Positions 6,073-11,142 of a DNA stretch of 53,025 nucleotides are shown here, one piece after another. Every line of letters starts with the position of its first letter. Positions within the stretch are counted from its first letter, which is position 1. Position numbers and translations under genes: made by a program. Below the pieces are notes generated by a model. The model was not told where the DNA came from. It saw only the letters and a program-made list of their open reading frames with translations, and made no database searches. Origin of the DNA: an uncultured Chlorobiaceae bacterium (lineage in GTDB: Bacteria; Bacteroidota; Chlorobiia; Chlorobiales; Chlorobiaceae); NCBI GenBank assembly GCA_903895195.1, contig CAITSZ010000022.1:1-53025 (forward strand). The letters run 5' to 3'.

Positions 6073-7230
6073 CTATCCTATTTTTGTCGCACCAGATATG
6101 ATCGCTATGACAAGTTTGTCAATTGTAGCATCGTCAATCAGCACAGGGATGTTGAGGCAGATACTGCTGCGAAGCATGGTACCTGTTTTCGGCCAGAGGG
6201 CTTCAAGATCGGCTGTATTGTATCGGTCGTATTCACCAAGAAGGTGACCCCAAACTCCGGCAAAATGCCAGTCAAGAGCTTCGGGCAGAATCTTGGTTCC
6301 AAAACCGTGCTCGGTGAGATGTGCTTCGAACTGAAGCGCAGCTTCACGGTTTTTTACCCTGAAAATCAGTGTGTCGCCTTGCGAACCGGCTTCGTCACTG
6401 AATGGCCTCAGGATAATATTGTCAAGATGACGGATAGCATCCTTGATTTTACGCTTGTTGTCCTTTGCTTTAGAGAGTATGGTCTCAATTTTTGCCAGCT
6501 GTGCAAGACCGATTGCCGCAGTAACTTCACTGAGGCGCAAATTCAGCCCTTTGGAGCGTCTTGGATCTTTACCTCTTGGTAAGCCGGGCATGTGCATGTG
6601 ACCATGATCGGAGAACTCGGCGGCACGATCGTAAATATCTTTGTCGTTAGTGACAATGATGCCTCCCTCTCCGGTATGGAGGGTCTTGCCTGCATCAAAT
6701 GAGAATGATGCCACACTGCCAAAGGTACCGAGCTTTCTGCCCTTGTATGAAGCTCCGAGTGCCTGAGCAGCATCCTCGATCAAAATGAGGCCGTGCTTTT
6801 TGCAAATTGCGGAGAGCTCATCCATTTTCGGAGAAGCCCACATTGGAATGGCAACGACTGCTTTGGTTGAAGGTGTAATTGCCTTTTCAACTTCCAATGG
6901 GTCGAGATGGTAGGTTTCATCAAGTTCTACAGGAACAGGCACTGCTCCAAGAGCGCTGATTGCCTCCACAGGGGCAATAAAGGTCCATGCTGTTGTAATG
7001 ACTTCGTCACCCGGCCCGATTCCAGCACCGGCTAGGGCGCAATGAATGGCTGCAGTGCCTGAAGAAACAGCATGAGCGTACTTAACGCCTATCCATGCCG
7101 CAAATTTTTCTTCAAACTCTCTTGCCTTGTAATTGCCGCCGCCGTAACGGTATAAATTGACCTTCTCCCTGCTGAAAAGCTCCTGTATTTCGGCCAGTTC
7201 TTCCCGACCGATGAGTTCTGCACCCGCCAT
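6073..7230 (-). CDS. DegT/DnrJ/EryC1-type PLP aminotransferase, KdnA-like
   Basis: A 385-residue fold-type I aminotransferase of the sugar (DegT) group. Visible features are the cofactor Thr/Ala pocket SSGTAAIHCAL (about 57-67), the cofactor-binding Asp in EDAAQALGA (about 153), and the Schiff-base Lys 182 in FDAGKTLHTGEGG. Such enzymes transfer an amino group to a keto or aldehyde sugar. The gene lies 16 bp after an Fe-type alcohol dehydrogenase and a CMP-sugar synthetase gene. The same three-enzyme set in Shewanella makes CMP-8-amino-3,8-dideoxy-Kdo (KdnB, KdnA, KdsB). Length agrees with KdnA. I infer that it aminates an aldehyde made by the neighbour; the exact sugar is unknown. AGGA lies upstream of the ATG at 7230. 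It is the last gene of the operon, before a strong terminator. Confidence 0.85.
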   Translation of the reverse strand: MAGAELIGREELAEIQELFSREKVNLYRYGGGNYKAREFEEKFAAWIGVKYAHAVSSGTAAIHCALAGAGIGPGDEVITTAWTFIAPVEAISALGAVPVPVELDETYHLDPLEVEKAITPSTKAVVAIPMWASPKMDELSAICKKHGLILIEDAAQALGASYKGRKLGTFGSVASFSFDAGKTLHTGEGGIIVTNDKDIYDRAAEFSDHGHMHMPGLPRGKDPRRSKGLNLRLSEVTAAIGLAQLAKIETILSKAKDNKRKIKDAIRHLDNIILRPFSDEAGSQGDTLIFRVKNREAALQFEAHLTEHGFGTKILPEALDWHFAGVWGHLLGEYDRYNTADLEALWPKTGTMLRSSICLNIPVLIDDATIDKLVIAIISGATKIG

Positions 7231-7246
7231 AATATGTCCTGTTCTT

Positions 7247-8377
7247 TTAAGTTAATTGAAAAACGACGGCTCTTGCCGACTCTTCTGTAAATTCCACCGG
7301 ATTGCCTGAAAAGGATCCTTTAAGTGCTTCCGATGCATTGCGGGCAAATTCAGCCGCATTCCCTTTGCCATACCCGTAAGGAACAAGCGTGGGTATCTTG
7401 AGCTGAAGATAGAGTTCATCCATCTCCTGAAGCAGCTCTGCAGTCGCCTCTTTTGGTGATGGGGATGAACGCATGGGGTTAAGAAGTGCATACTTTTCGT
7501 AACCATGCTCATGATTGTAGCGCATGACTTCCTTGAGAAAAATTGCTCCTGCCAGACCATGCGGAACACGATGCTTGACACCAAGGTAGTAGGCAAACCC
7601 GTTTGTGGGGCCGTCTCCGGAGTTCATCAGAGCCACAGTACCGCAAACACTGCCAATAGCAAGATCGAGCCTTGACTCGGCGCGGTCCAGTTGGTTCTGC
7701 TGCAATGCGTAGAAGGTGCGTTGAAAGCCCTCGACAGAAAAAATTCTGCTCAAGGCAGTGTGCTTTACAGATCCGAAGCTGTCCACGCAGTGTACAAGAC
7801 TGTCCATCGCTGAAGCTATAACACTTTCAATTGGTGCAGTCATTGAGAGCTGTGGATCGATAACAGCTTTTTTGGGAAAGTTCTTTTTACTGTTGATGCC
7901 AAGCTTGCGACCTTCTGCCTCGTCAATAAATACCGCATTAAAACTTACCTCTGCTCCACTGCCGAGCAGCGAAGGCACGGTTACAAGCGGCAGAGGATCG
8001 TTGACCCCTGTTGGAAAGCCTTTGAGTGAAAGGGCAGGGACGTTGTTTGTCATCAAGAGAGCTATGCCTTTGCCAAGGTCAAGGGTACTGCCGCCACCTA
8101 TGGCAACAATGACATCGGGAGGATTGCTGCGAAAGAACTCCGCAACATTTTCAAGGTGAGCATAGGTTGGCTCTCCCTTAAATTCGTTGCAATAAACGAC
8201 AGAGTTGGAATTTGCAGAGGTAAGAGCCCTCAAAACATCCTGAAAATAAAGGTTGCCAGCCAGATTGGCATCATAGATAATACCGGGCTTCTTGACTGCC
8301 AGTTGCGCTAAATGCACGTTCAGGTTCAGTGCTTCATTAACTCCGATAATCAGATCGGTAGATAAAAAGAAATTCAT
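7247..8377 (-). CDS. Iron-type alcohol dehydrogenase, KdnB-like
   Basis: A 376-residue group III (Fe-ADH/dehydroquinate synthase-like) dehydrogenase. The nucleotide-binding motif IGGGSTLDLGK lies at about 93-103. Likely metal ligands are Asp192 and His196 (MDSLVHCVD) and His273 (VPHGLAGA). By eye alignment with FucO the remaining canonical His falls on Asn259 (GPTNGFAYYLG), so the metal site may be altered. KdnB of Shewanella belongs to this family and oxidises the C8 hydroxyl of Kdo to an aldehyde. The KdnA-like aminotransferase next door makes a similar reaction plausible here. It sits 21 bp after the synthetase gene in the same operon. The substrate is inferred from context only. Confidence 0.82.
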   Translation of the reverse strand: MNFFLSTDLIIGVNEALNLNVHLAQLAVKKPGIIYDANLAGNLYFQDVLRALTSANSNSVVYCNEFKGEPTYAHLENVAEFFRSNPPDVIVAIGGGSTLDLGKGIALLMTNNVPALSLKGFPTGVNDPLPLVTVPSLLGSGAEVSFNAVFIDEAEGRKLGINSKKNFPKKAVIDPQLSMTAPIESVIASAMDSLVHCVDSFGSVKHTALSRIFSVEGFQRTFYALQQNQLDRAESRLDLAIGSVCGTVALMNSGDGPTNGFAYYLGVKHRVPHGLAGAIFLKEVMRYNHEHGYEKYALLNPMRSSPSPKEATAELLQEMDELYLQLKIPTLVPYGYGKGNAAEFARNASEALKGSFSGNPVEFTEESARAVVFQLT

Positions 8378-8398
8378 AAGAACTTTGATATAAGGGTT

Positions 8399-9103
8399 TT
8401 ATTGATTCACATCCTGAGCAGCCAGGTTTTTTTTATTAAAGTAATACTCAATTAAATCTATTTCCTCAATAGTATCAATCTCCCATGTCTGCCAAAACTC
8501 CATTTCAAAAGCTGAGAGTTTTTGGCCGATTCTGTTGCCGAAAACATGGAGGGTTTCAGGCTTGAATATATAAATTGATCCATTTTCAATGAACTGTGCC
8601 GGGCGGTCCTGGCGCATGCCGCGGTTGCGGTAATCAAAGTTCAGGCTTTTCCATTCGCCTTGCTTTGACTCCCAAATGGTAAGATCGTCAGCTTTGGTAA
8701 CCGATATCAAGGAATCAGCACCCTCACGTATAAAGATTTCTACCGCCCCGTCAATATCTCCGGGTTTACGTAAAGGCGATGTTGCCTGAAGAAATACAAT
8801 AAGATCAGTTTGTATGTGATAGTCGCGCTCGATAACTCCGAGGGCATGCAGAATTGCCGATTCCGAAGTCGCCTTGTCGCCCGAAAGTTCCTCCGGACGC
8901 ACAATCACCTCTGCACCATACTCTTTGGCTACGCTGGCTATGCCCTGGTCGTCAGTAGTGACAAAAACCCGCTCGATGCTTGTCGATGCCAAGGCTTGAA
9001 GTATAGTCCAGGCAAGCAGTGGCTTACCTGCTACCGGATAAATATTTTTGTCTTTGAGGCCTTTTGACCCTCCCCTTGCAGGGATGATTGCTACTGTATG
9101 CAT
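8399..9103 (-). CDS. CMP-sugar synthetase, acylneuraminate cytidylyltransferase (NeuA) type
   Basis: A 234-residue nucleotidyltransferase that activates a 2-keto-3-deoxy sugar acid with CTP. The N-terminal P-loop-like motif [15 protein letters not shown] (6-20) is the NeuA/PseF/LegF signature rather than the KdsB form. Further motifs are [39 protein letters not shown] and [17 protein letters not shown] near the C-terminus. No ulosonate or nonulosonate synthase (NeuB-like) is in the window, so the sugar acid must come from elsewhere, perhaps the cell's general Kdo pool. It lies between the transferase-like and dehydrogenase genes with about 21-bp gaps, consistent with one operon. Confidence 0.88.
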
Positions 9104-9124
9104 AGAAAAAAGTTACTTGTTAGT

Positions 9125-10081
9125 TCATCCGTCAATGACATGGCGGCAGACATCGGCAATATTTTTTGCAGCGCACTTGTTCTGCAATGGGGTAAGTGAT
9201 TTCAACACTTCAGTCGGCAGGCCGCAGTGTACAATTTTGTTCAGTGCAGATCCTACAAAAATGGTGGATGAAAACTGTGCAATGAGCATCCGGGAGTTCG
9301 CAATCATCTCCTCTGTCTTTCCTTCACTGAAAACGATGCTCTCTGGTGCATACTGCTTTATCTCTCTTATTGCCCGTTCCGCATTTTCATTTGGATGCAG
9401 TTTGAAGATAAGTTGACTGCCATCTGCCATTTCAAGGTACTTGCGGATATTTTTGACTCTGTTTTCATAAATAAACGTTTCGCGATTGTCGGATGTACAG
9501 ACCAGAACGAAATCGTGATATGGAAAGTCGTTGTGCAGGTACTGCTCGCAGTTGTCAAAGTTTGGAATGCTGGTAACGACAATCTTGGCAGGATTTATCC
9601 CCTTGCGGATAAAAAGGTCACGGTACCCTTCACTGGCCACACAGAACTTTTCGTATGAATCGGAAAGCCCTGTTGTCGATGTGCCGGCAACCCACCGCGG
9701 AACCCACTGAAAGTTTTTTGCAAGATGGTAGAGTACCGTTTCAGGCTCTGTCATTCCTTCCTGAACCAGTACAATCTTTTTGCTGCGGATATGTTTCGGA
9801 ACAATAAGATCGGTGCAGGTTAGAACAAGATCATAATCGTGCTGATAACCGCCAATATCAAGTTTCAGATCATGTGAACGAAGGTATTCGAGCGTCCTCT
9901 GTGAGCGCTTGCTGCCCATAATGGTAAACTCAAGCAGACCAATATCACTGGCTTTACCAAGAATACCATCGCTGAAAAATGGTGAAAAATACTGGTCATA
10001 ATCAGTCAAACACCCGGCAATCTGATGCATCTGGGTTGTCTGGTTCATCGAACCGCAAATAAATAAAATATTTTTCTTCAT
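9125..10081 (-). CDS. Putative GT-B-type glycosyl/glycerophosphotransferase-like protein
   Basis: 318 residues, soluble. The N-terminus (ILFICGSMNQTTQMHQIA) looks like the first strand and loop of a GT-B fold. The C-terminal half has LIFKLHPNENAERAI and later MLIAQFSSTIFVGSALNK. These resemble the capsule or CDP-glycerol glycerophosphotransferase group, where KxHP and SS(T) residues line the nucleotide site. I infer transfer of a CMP- or CDP-activated group, perhaps the product of the neighbouring synthetase. Its ATG overlaps the stop of the upstream membrane-protein gene by 4 bp (ATGA), which implies translational coupling. The exact family is not certain. Confidence 0.6.
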   Translation of the reverse strand: MKKNILFICGSMNQTTQMHQIAGCLTDYDQYFSPFFSDGILGKASDIGLLEFTIMGSKRSQRTLEYLRSHDLKLDIGGYQHDYDLVLTCTDLIVPKHIRSKKIVLVQEGMTEPETVLYHLAKNFQWVPRWVAGTSTTGLSDSYEKFCVASEGYRDLFIRKGINPAKIVVTSIPNFDNCEQYLHNDFPYHDFVLVCTSDNRETFIYENRVKNIRKYLEMADGSQLIFKLHPNENAERAIREIKQYAPESIVFSEGKTEEMIANSRMLIAQFSSTIFVGSALNKIVHCGLPTEVLKSLTPLQNKCAAKNIADVCRHVIDG

Positions 10082-11142
10082 ATCTCCGGGTCAGCTGCTC
10101 CTTCGGCATCACGGAGGTGTACTCCTGAAAAAAACATAACTCCATACCCGACTGTGTACCAGAGTAACTCTTTGAAGCGCCTTAACAGCACAAATGCACC
10201 GCCGAGGGCAAGAAAATCATGCATACCGAGTGCCTGAAAAAATGCAAGGTAACCAAGATCCTGTACTCCAAGTCCTGAAGGAATGAAAAAGAACAATGCC
10301 CTGAGTATGGTAATGGCTGTATCAATGGCCATTACCTGAAAAAATGAGATCTGAACGCCAAGAAGTGTCAGAATAATATAACTCTCAATGGCAAGCGTAA
10401 ACCAGGCAAGGATATAATAAAGCATGACCATAAAGAGCCTGGCAGTAAATGGGCCCCTATAACTCTTGAGTTCCTGATCGGTATCAAGAAAGCCTGATTC
10501 TTTTGCTATGAGCCACTCTTTGATTTTTTTGAAGGGAATACGCATTAAAAAGCCGTGAAGATTATGCGCAGCTTTTCCATTGAGCAGAAGCATAAGAAGA
10601 AAAAGAAAAACCGAGAATATCACACTTCCGGTAGCGAGCATAATATAACCGAGCCCCTCAAAACCAAGCATTGAAAGTGAAGCCTTTTGCAGAAGCGCAA
10701 AACCTGCCAGAGCACCAATAAGAGTATAAACTCCCTGAGCTACACCAAGCATGAGTTTGCGGATCGCAACACTTGCCACACCGGCAGGAAGCGGAATTTT
10801 CAGAAACCGATAGCAGAGAAACGGACGAAGAGGCTCCCCTACTGCGACGCCCGCAGGCAAGGTCATGGAAACTGTTTCTGATATGACCTGTATTTTAAGA
10901 AGCTTGAAAAACGGTATGGCAGAGGCGCTCTCTGGAAACAATTTGATCCAGGTGAATGTTTCAATAAGATGAAGCGCCAGATAAGGAAGCAGAATAAGCA
11001 GTGATGAATAGCCGATCTTCGAAATCCGTCCAATCGCTCCATGGAGGTCAATCTGGCTGAATAGATAGACAATAAGGAGAATACCGAGACATAGCCCAGC
11101 ATAGCCAGTCCATGAAGAACCGGATTTTTTATTCATCTGCAT
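10078..11142 (-). CDS. Flippase-like integral membrane protein (LPG synthase TM / UPF0104)
   Basis: About 354 residues with eight or so hydrophobic segments, for example GLCLGILLIVYLFSQI, LLILLPYLALHLIETFTW, GVYTLIGALAGFALL and GSVIFSVFLFLLMLLL. The PAGVAVGEPLRPFLCYRFL motif and the late GLGVQDLGYLAFFQALG motif are typical of the lysylphosphatidylglycerol-synthase transmembrane/flippase-like family (AglD/YbhN type). I use the ATG at 11142; ATG 11136 is also possible. The frame extends to a TTG at 11208, but that part lies in a hairpin leader. As first gene of the surface-sugar operon it may move a lipid-linked sugar across the inner membrane. No catalytic domain is present. Confidence 0.8.
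   Translation of the reverse strand: MQMNKKSGSSWTGYAGLCLGILLIVYLFSQIDLHGAIGRISKIGYSSLLILLPYLALHLIETFTWIKLFPESASAIPFFKLLKIQVISETVSMTLPAGVAVGEPLRPFLCYRFLKIPLPAGVASVAIRKLMLGVAQGVYTLIGALAGFALLQKASLSMLGFEGLGYIMLATGSVIFSVFLFLLMLLLNGKAAHNLHGFLMRIPFKKIKEWLIAKESGFLDTDQELKSYRGPFTARLFMVMLYYILAWFTLAIESYIILTLLGVQISFFQVMAIDTAITILRALFFFIPSGLGVQDLGYLAFFQALGMHDFLALGGAFVLLRRFKELLWYTVGYGVMFFSGVHLRDAEGAADPEI

Follow-up and report, generated by a model that had tools for sequence, protein, structure and literature searches.

A NeuB-linked five-gene operon of Chlorobiaceae for the probable synthesis and transfer of an amino-modified nonulosonic acid

Which sugar do five close-set genes of a green sulfur bacterium make, and where would it go? 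The genes lie on the minus strand, between positions 6073 and 11142, of a 53,025-nucleotide stretch of DNA from an uncultured Chlorobiaceae bacterium (assembly GCA_903895195.1, contig CAITSZ010000022.1; the whole stretch is called the window here). A first-pass annotation had described them as a candidate operon for a terminal-amino ulosonic acid, following the logic of Shewanella, in which 3-deoxy-D-manno-octulosonic acid (Kdo) is converted to its 8-amino form (Kdo8N). An amino-ulosonate with a NeuA-type activator is supported by our analysis; Kdo, the substrate implied by that description, is not. We put the probability that the operon makes an amino-modified nonulosonic acid and transfers it to the cell surface at about two in three. 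The substrate is most likely a nine-carbon, NeuB-derived nonulosonate rather than Kdo. The more interesting finding is not the operon itself: it belongs to a phylum-wide NeuB system in which three enzymes seem to have taken the place of three unrelated ones. The computations show the gene content, the fixed order, the phylogeny, the link to NeuB and the exchange of three enzyme classes; the substrate, the carbon that bears the amine, the sequence of reactions, the CMP donor and the acceptor are our inferences from these, as is all that we say of gene function. The features of the locus are as follows (CMP, cytidine monophosphate; PLP, pyridoxal phosphate).

6073-7230, minus strand: PLP-dependent aminotransferase of the DegT/KdnA group, 385 aa (DegT Pfam match, 266 bits)
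7247-8377, minus strand: Fe-type alcohol dehydrogenase, 376 aa (PF00465/PF25137; Fe-type dehydrogenase Pfam match, 127 bits)
8399-9103, minus strand: NeuA-type cytidylyltransferase, a putative CMP-nonulosonate synthetase, 234 aa (CTP_transf_3 Pfam match, 93 bits)
9125-10081, minus strand: GT-B glycosyltransferase, 318 aa (invariant motifs and predicted fold)
10078-11142, minus strand: multi-pass membrane protein, LPG_synthase_TM/HpnL-like (PF03706, 74.7 bits)
5880-5864, minus strand: terminator-like hairpin 3' of the aminotransferase gene (7-pair stem with 5 G-C pairs, then a T-rich tail; a consensus match only)

The Fe-type dehydrogenase, the DegT aminotransferase and the CMP-sugar synthetase are adjacent, just as first described, and the glycosyltransferase and membrane protein precede this trio with the 4-bp overlap noted then (10078-10081). 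The other gaps are 16-21 bp, and the hairpin at 5880-5864 likely marks the operon end. The membrane-protein reading frame opens at a TTG (11208), with an ATG at 11142. Since the longer frame spans a terminator-like stem (11203-11173), we kept the start at 11142. The gene order, whose conservation the annotation had proposed to check, is fixed across Chlorobiaceae. It was intact in all nine regions that we inspected and in 23 of the 27 named contigs, the remaining four being cut by contig ends. Only one Chlorobiaceae genome of those searched lacked the aminotransferase, and in that genome (G110) the contig stops just past the dehydrogenase. The five-gene arrangement is not due to chance.

The best PDB match of the aminotransferase was KdnA (5k8b, 271.6 bits); the next chain scored 163 bits. 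Best matches to perosamine-type pathways, which would have spoken against the original proposal, did not appear, and a perosamine-type assignment was rejected on score. In the trees, the aminotransferase and its homologues at two loci outside the family (L105 and L106) formed a clade of their own (100/100), beside the KdnA clade (98/99 and 96/99). The enzyme is not inside the KdnA clade, with which it shares 36-46% identity. It is of the KdnA group, as proposed, in the sense that KdnA is its nearest characterised relative. The motifs RY, SDHGHxH, RG and WH..W.H are common to both and are missing from two LegC/DegT-type sequences of other Chlorobiaceae loci. LegC and PseC identities were rejected as well: the scores were 175.9 bits against a cut-off of 420 and 172.9 bits against 423.5, and the LegC-type sequence fell far outside in the tree.

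The dehydrogenase had been called KdnB-like, and this did not hold. KdnB was only the 30th among its PDB matches, the two fell into separate clades and the identity to KdnB of Kdn operons was 22-24%. In 7/7 Chlorobiaceae sequences aligned, and at L105 and L106, an Asn occupies the position of a metal-ligand histidine of FucO/ADH2, which we take to be His263. The dehydrogenase of a further locus (L181) has Ala there. Phosphonate and daptide Fe-type dehydrogenase models match the operon enzyme weakly.

The synthetase was correctly described as NeuA-type rather than KdsB. Its best PDB matches are synthetases of CMP-N-acetylneuraminic acid (CMP-Neu5Ac), and in the tree it groups with NeuA of L105 and L106 (99/98), apart from KdsB; against the PseF model it scored 117.6 bits, under the curated cut-off. 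The operon holds no KdsB-type activator. A second, stronger cytidylyltransferase match was found in nearly all Chlorobiaceae searched, and in the genome of the window this is KdsB, encoded away from the operon, which means that Kdo is provided with an activator of its own. Membership in the Kdo8N operon was rejected on these three features: the clade of the aminotransferase, the dehydrogenase and the activator.

Next we come to the relatives of the trio. A scan of some 85,000 species genomes of bacteria and archaea with the aminotransferase listed 80 loci. Among the matches listed, the operon type occurs outside Chlorobiaceae only at L105 (gammaproteobacterium SCGC AAA168-P09) and L106 (SAR86), both of one order, and the next matches are at most 46% identical and of the KdnA kind. 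At both loci NeuA (51 and 50% identity), the dehydrogenase (47 and 46%) and the aminotransferase (62 and 59%) stand in that order and are directly followed by a 748-aa protein with a NeuB domain (L105:9186-11432, L106:9155-11401). In this protein CBS, NeuB, SAF and xylose-isomerase-like TIM-barrel domains are fused, which suggests joint action of the synthase with a hexose isomerase or epimerase. A polysialyltransferase-family gene lies near the trio in L105. In L181, a third genome of the SAR86 order, genes for NeuB, NeuC (391 bits, curated cut-off 236), a CBS protein, an Fe-type dehydrogenase, a KdnA-like aminotransferase and NeuA are consecutive. At L105 and L106 the trio itself is thus in physical linkage with NeuB, and at L181 a related set is. 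KdnA loci with recognised partners carry KdnB, mostly together with KdsB or KdsA.

The glycosyltransferase of the operon is tied to NeuB too. Among 296 genomes of the phylum we found the glycosyltransferase in 110, the NeuB orthologue in 110 and both in 109; the exceptions are G295 (85% complete), without NeuB, and G220, without the glycosyltransferase. Outside Chlorobiaceae the co-occurrence gives a Fisher's p of ~1e-47, uncorrected for shared ancestry. There the glycosyltransferase usually heads a cluster that encodes SpsF, two transketolase halves, a class III aminotransferase, a short-chain dehydrogenase/reductase (SDR), a haloacid dehalogenase-type phosphatase (HAD), NeuB and an FA_hydroxylase-family protein, although some loci lack individual members, e.g. 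the transketolase halves or the HAD. We saw the cluster at L067, L068, L072, L073, L075, L076, L079 and L080, and its FA_hydroxylase-family member is a membrane protein. Identities are 45-60% for the glycosyltransferase and, against the unlinked Chlorobium pair, 64-75% for NeuB and mostly 52-66% for the HAD. The SAR86-order loci, the co-occurrence and these clusters are three independent lines that link the operon to NeuB.

Cluster markers occur in 45 of the 231 genomes that were searched from the phylum outside Chlorobiaceae. SpsF and the SDR were present in 45/45 of those with the glycosyltransferase and the class III aminotransferase in 43/45; all three occurred in 43 and at least two in every one. 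None of the three was found in any of the 65 Chlorobiaceae genomes. SpsF and NeuA are both of the CTP_transf_3 family and fall in different clades, and the best models of the SDR are gluconate 5-dehydrogenase and KduD-type enzymes, which act on secondary alcohols. For the same three reactions (CMP activation, oxidation of an alcohol and transamination) the Chlorobiaceae trio would use proteins that are unrelated or only distantly related. It seems that these three enzymes took the place of three unrelated ones, whereas the synthase and the transferase were retained. With these two unchanged, the product is most simply read as identical or closely similar. A lineage like that of the SAR86-order genomes may have been the source of the trio.

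The annotation had also stated that no NeuB-like synthase is nearby. This is true of the locus, as there is no NeuB gene within the operon. However, the same genome encodes one NeuB-family synthase elsewhere (PF03102, 252 bits), preceded by a HAD resembling KdsC and the Kdn-9-phosphate phosphatase (Kdn, 3-deoxy-D-glycero-D-galacto-nonulosonic acid). A family-profile scan found the NeuB family in 31/31 Chlorobiaceae, and the NeuB protein was found in 64/65, the genome without it being 85% complete. The best NCBIfam model of the NeuB-linked HAD is the Kdn-9-phosphate phosphatase (146.3 bits, cut-off 180), against 133 bits for KdsC, also under the cut-off. Its catalytic Asp nucleophile, Glu and Lys are kept in 28/28 sequences aligned, and the Glu and Lys positions are those altered in PDB variants (4hgq, 4hgr) of the Bacteroides Kdn-9-phosphate phosphatase.

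Together, the enzymes could be arranged into the following pathway. The NeuB-like synthase would condense a hexose phosphate and phosphoenolpyruvate, and the HAD encoded next to it would take off the 9-phosphate to leave a nonulosonate resembling Kdn. An alcohol of this sugar, most likely the terminal C9 hydroxyl, would then be oxidised by the operon's Fe-type dehydrogenase, and the KdnA-group aminotransferase would turn the carbonyl into an amine. The NeuA-type enzyme would activate the product as a CMP-sugar, which the GT-B enzyme, with the aid of the membrane protein, would attach to a lipid or lipooligosaccharide of the cell surface. A phosphatase that acts on a 9-phosphate would release the C9 alcohol only once NeuB has done its work; in that case oxidation and amination would come after synthesis, as they do when Kdo8N is formed. 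Well-known Fe-type dehydrogenases mostly act on primary alcohols. We favour a terminal amine because of this usual preference and the relationship to KdnA, and within this explanation we regard C9 as somewhat more likely than not.

A bolder reading goes further than the operon. A C9 amino-nonulosonate would be a family-wide core surface sugar of Chlorobiaceae, and the trio of NeuA, Fe-type dehydrogenase and KdnA-group aminotransferase, with its nearest relatives in the SAR86 order, would have displaced SpsF, the SDR and the class III aminotransferase while giving the same product as in the rest of the phylum. We offer this as a tentative proposal, at somewhat under even odds.

Several observations weigh against the proposed pathway. 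Among characterised enzymes KdnA is closest to the aminotransferase, and it acts on a Kdo aldehyde. The NeuB-linked HAD scores under both curated equivalog cut-offs. Within Chlorobiaceae the link is an indirect one, as NeuB and the phosphatase are encoded elsewhere, and the co-occurrence statistics take no account of shared ancestry. The dehydrogenase has Asn for one of the usual metal-ligand histidines and its activity is only putative. Finally, the best models of the replaced SDR act on secondary alcohols, which favours internal over terminal amination. An amine at an internal carbon of the same nonulosonate (e.g. C5, C7 or C8) would be formed by oxidation of a secondary alcohol, and amination of Kdn at C5 would give neuraminic acid. 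Internal keto groups are the substrates of most DegT aminotransferases, and C9-amino-Kdn and neuraminic acid are isomeric, so that mass alone cannot separate them. Nevertheless, we consider an internal amine unlikely. KdnA, to which the aminotransferase is nearest, works on a terminal aldehyde, and the two have the four motifs in common that the two other aligned DegT enzymes lack, and primary alcohols are the usual substrates of the well-known Fe-type dehydrogenases.

A diverged Kdo8N operon, in which Kdo would be oxidised and aminated at C8 and then activated by a NeuA-type enzyme in place of KdsB, would fit the closeness to KdnA among characterised aminotransferases. Kdo was measured in the cell envelope of Chlorobaculum tepidum (PMC12285230), and KdsA is widespread in the family (30/31 Chlorobiaceae searched, the genome of the window included). 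Against this, the dehydrogenase is not KdnB, the synthetase is not KdsB and the aminotransferase is outside the KdnA clade. KdnA operons have KdnB with KdsB or KdsA, whereas the trio outside Chlorobiaceae adjoins NeuB, and the distribution of the glycosyltransferase tracks NeuB. We regard this origin as improbable. Less probable still is another CMP-linked conversion of an alcohol to an amine, e.g. on an aminoalkylphosphonate or another non-ulosonate sugar. Fe-type dehydrogenases, aminotransferases and cytidylyltransferases do also co-occur in phosphonate and natural-product pathways, and the phosphonate and daptide models match the dehydrogenase, if weakly. But no gene for a phosphoenolpyruvate mutase or decarboxylase was found among the operon neighbours (the rest of the genome was not searched for them), the synthetase is NeuA-type, and the repeated linkage to NeuB and NeuC would be left unexplained. 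An amino-nonulosonate made from a NeuB product remains our preferred reading.

The description of the fourth gene as a GT-B-like transferase is borne out by the predicted fold. The AlphaFold model (pLDDT, its confidence score, 89.4) is a GT-B fold in Foldseek and VIA-align comparisons (Z up to 18.2), and the top Foldseek rows include a CMP-bound capsule synthase/polymerase, TagF and a polysialyltransferase. Uridine diphosphate N-acetylglucosamine 2-epimerases score as high, so the fold does not separate these from CMP-dependent transferases and leaves the donor undecided. The QEG and KLHPNE motifs are invariant in the alignment, with a Ser-rich (SS/ST-like) motif nearby. The window protein had no Pfam match at E 0.001, none of 18 glycosyltransferase orthologues matched a curated sialyltransferase profile of Pfam (GT38, GT52 and similar) up to E 0.1, and a PDB sequence search gave no credible match. 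The surface-polysaccharide model TIGR04396 was rejected at 21.5 bits, far under its cut-off. We propose that the enzyme is a CMP-nonulosonate transferase. The membrane protein scored 97.5 bits against the HpnL model, under the cut-off. Outside Chlorobiaceae it adjoins the glycosyltransferase in 6/6 same-order loci and in one more distant locus. It possibly serves lipid or glycolipid translocation or the acceptor step. Chlorobaculum tepidum is reported to have a lipooligosaccharide with Kdo and without O antigen (PMC12285230), and an aminoglycosphingolipid has been described from Chlorobium limicola (Jensen et al. 1991, as cited in PMC11762602). Either type of molecule could be the acceptor.

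How does the proposed pathway compare with known systems? The annotation had seen the logic of Shewanella Kdo8N synthesis (KdnB, KdnA and KdsB), and the scheme of Fe-type oxidation, KdnA-group amination and CMP activation by adjacent genes is indeed the same. The likeness ends there, with a dehydrogenase that is not a KdnB orthologue, a NeuA-type activator, an aminotransferase of the sister clade and linkage to NeuB instead of Kdo genes; Kdo as substrate is not supported. The Kdn pathway of Bacteroides thetaiotaomicron (Kdn-9-phosphate synthase, Kdn-9-phosphate phosphatase and CMP-Kdn synthetase) also has a NeuB-type synthase, a type C0 HAD with the same Glu and Lys and a CMP synthetase. To our knowledge it has no dehydrogenase/aminotransferase pair, and in Chlorobiaceae the synthase and the activator are unlinked. 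The pathways to Neu5Ac, legionaminic and pseudaminic acid (NeuBCA, LegBCHGIF and PseBCHGIF) likewise use a NeuB-family synthase, a NeuA/PseF-family activator and a CMP-sugar transferase. Their amines are put on a nucleotide-hexose before NeuB, whereas in Chlorobiaceae oxidation and amination would come after it, and the aminotransferase is far under the LegC and PseC cut-offs. The cluster of the other phylum members has an orthologous glycosyltransferase, NeuB and mostly the HAD, and like the Chlorobiaceae system it has a single cytidylyltransferase, dehydrogenase and aminotransferase; its SpsF, SDR and class III aminotransferase are unrelated to the Chlorobiaceae trio, and the transketolase halves and FA_hydroxylase are extra.

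We know of no nonulosonic-acid amino group that is installed other than on the hexose precursor, before NeuB acts. If the proposal is right, the late oxidation and amination of a finished nonulosonate would be a new route, possibly to a new sugar, analogous to Kdo8N. On 9-amino nonulosonates the literature searched, with partial coverage, yielded nothing usable, and the same is true of transketolases in connection with nonulosonic acids, of neuraminic acid in connection with Chlorobium and sphingolipids or with chlorosomes, and of phosphatases of the KDN/KDO8P type. An entire phototrophic family, reported to have lipooligosaccharide without O antigen (PMC12285230), would gain a constant amino-bearing surface sugar. 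The three-for-three replacement with synthase and transferase kept would be an unusually clear non-orthologous displacement. The operon would also offer a handle on the GT-SpsF-transketolase-NeuB cluster of the phylum, for which no description was found in the same partial coverage of the literature.

Two further observations concern neighbouring pathways. Beside KdsA lies a KdsC-like HAD (L060:6259-6834 in the genome of the window, and L174-L180) in which the nucleophilic Asp of motif I is changed to Pro or Ser in all eight Chlorobiaceae loci checked. Since this HAD lacks the nucleophile, hydrolysis of Kdo-8-phosphate may fall to a different enzyme, and the NeuB-linked HAD is one possibility. 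In most Chlorobiaceae the operon copy is the single NeuA-like protein, and the extra copies that we inspected accompany extra NeuB clusters. Some Chlorobiaceae have a further NeuB-family gene outside the usual setting (L161, L162, L163 and L164), in clusters with their own NeuA in three of the four and SpsF instead in L164, resembling ordinary variable nonulosonate loci.

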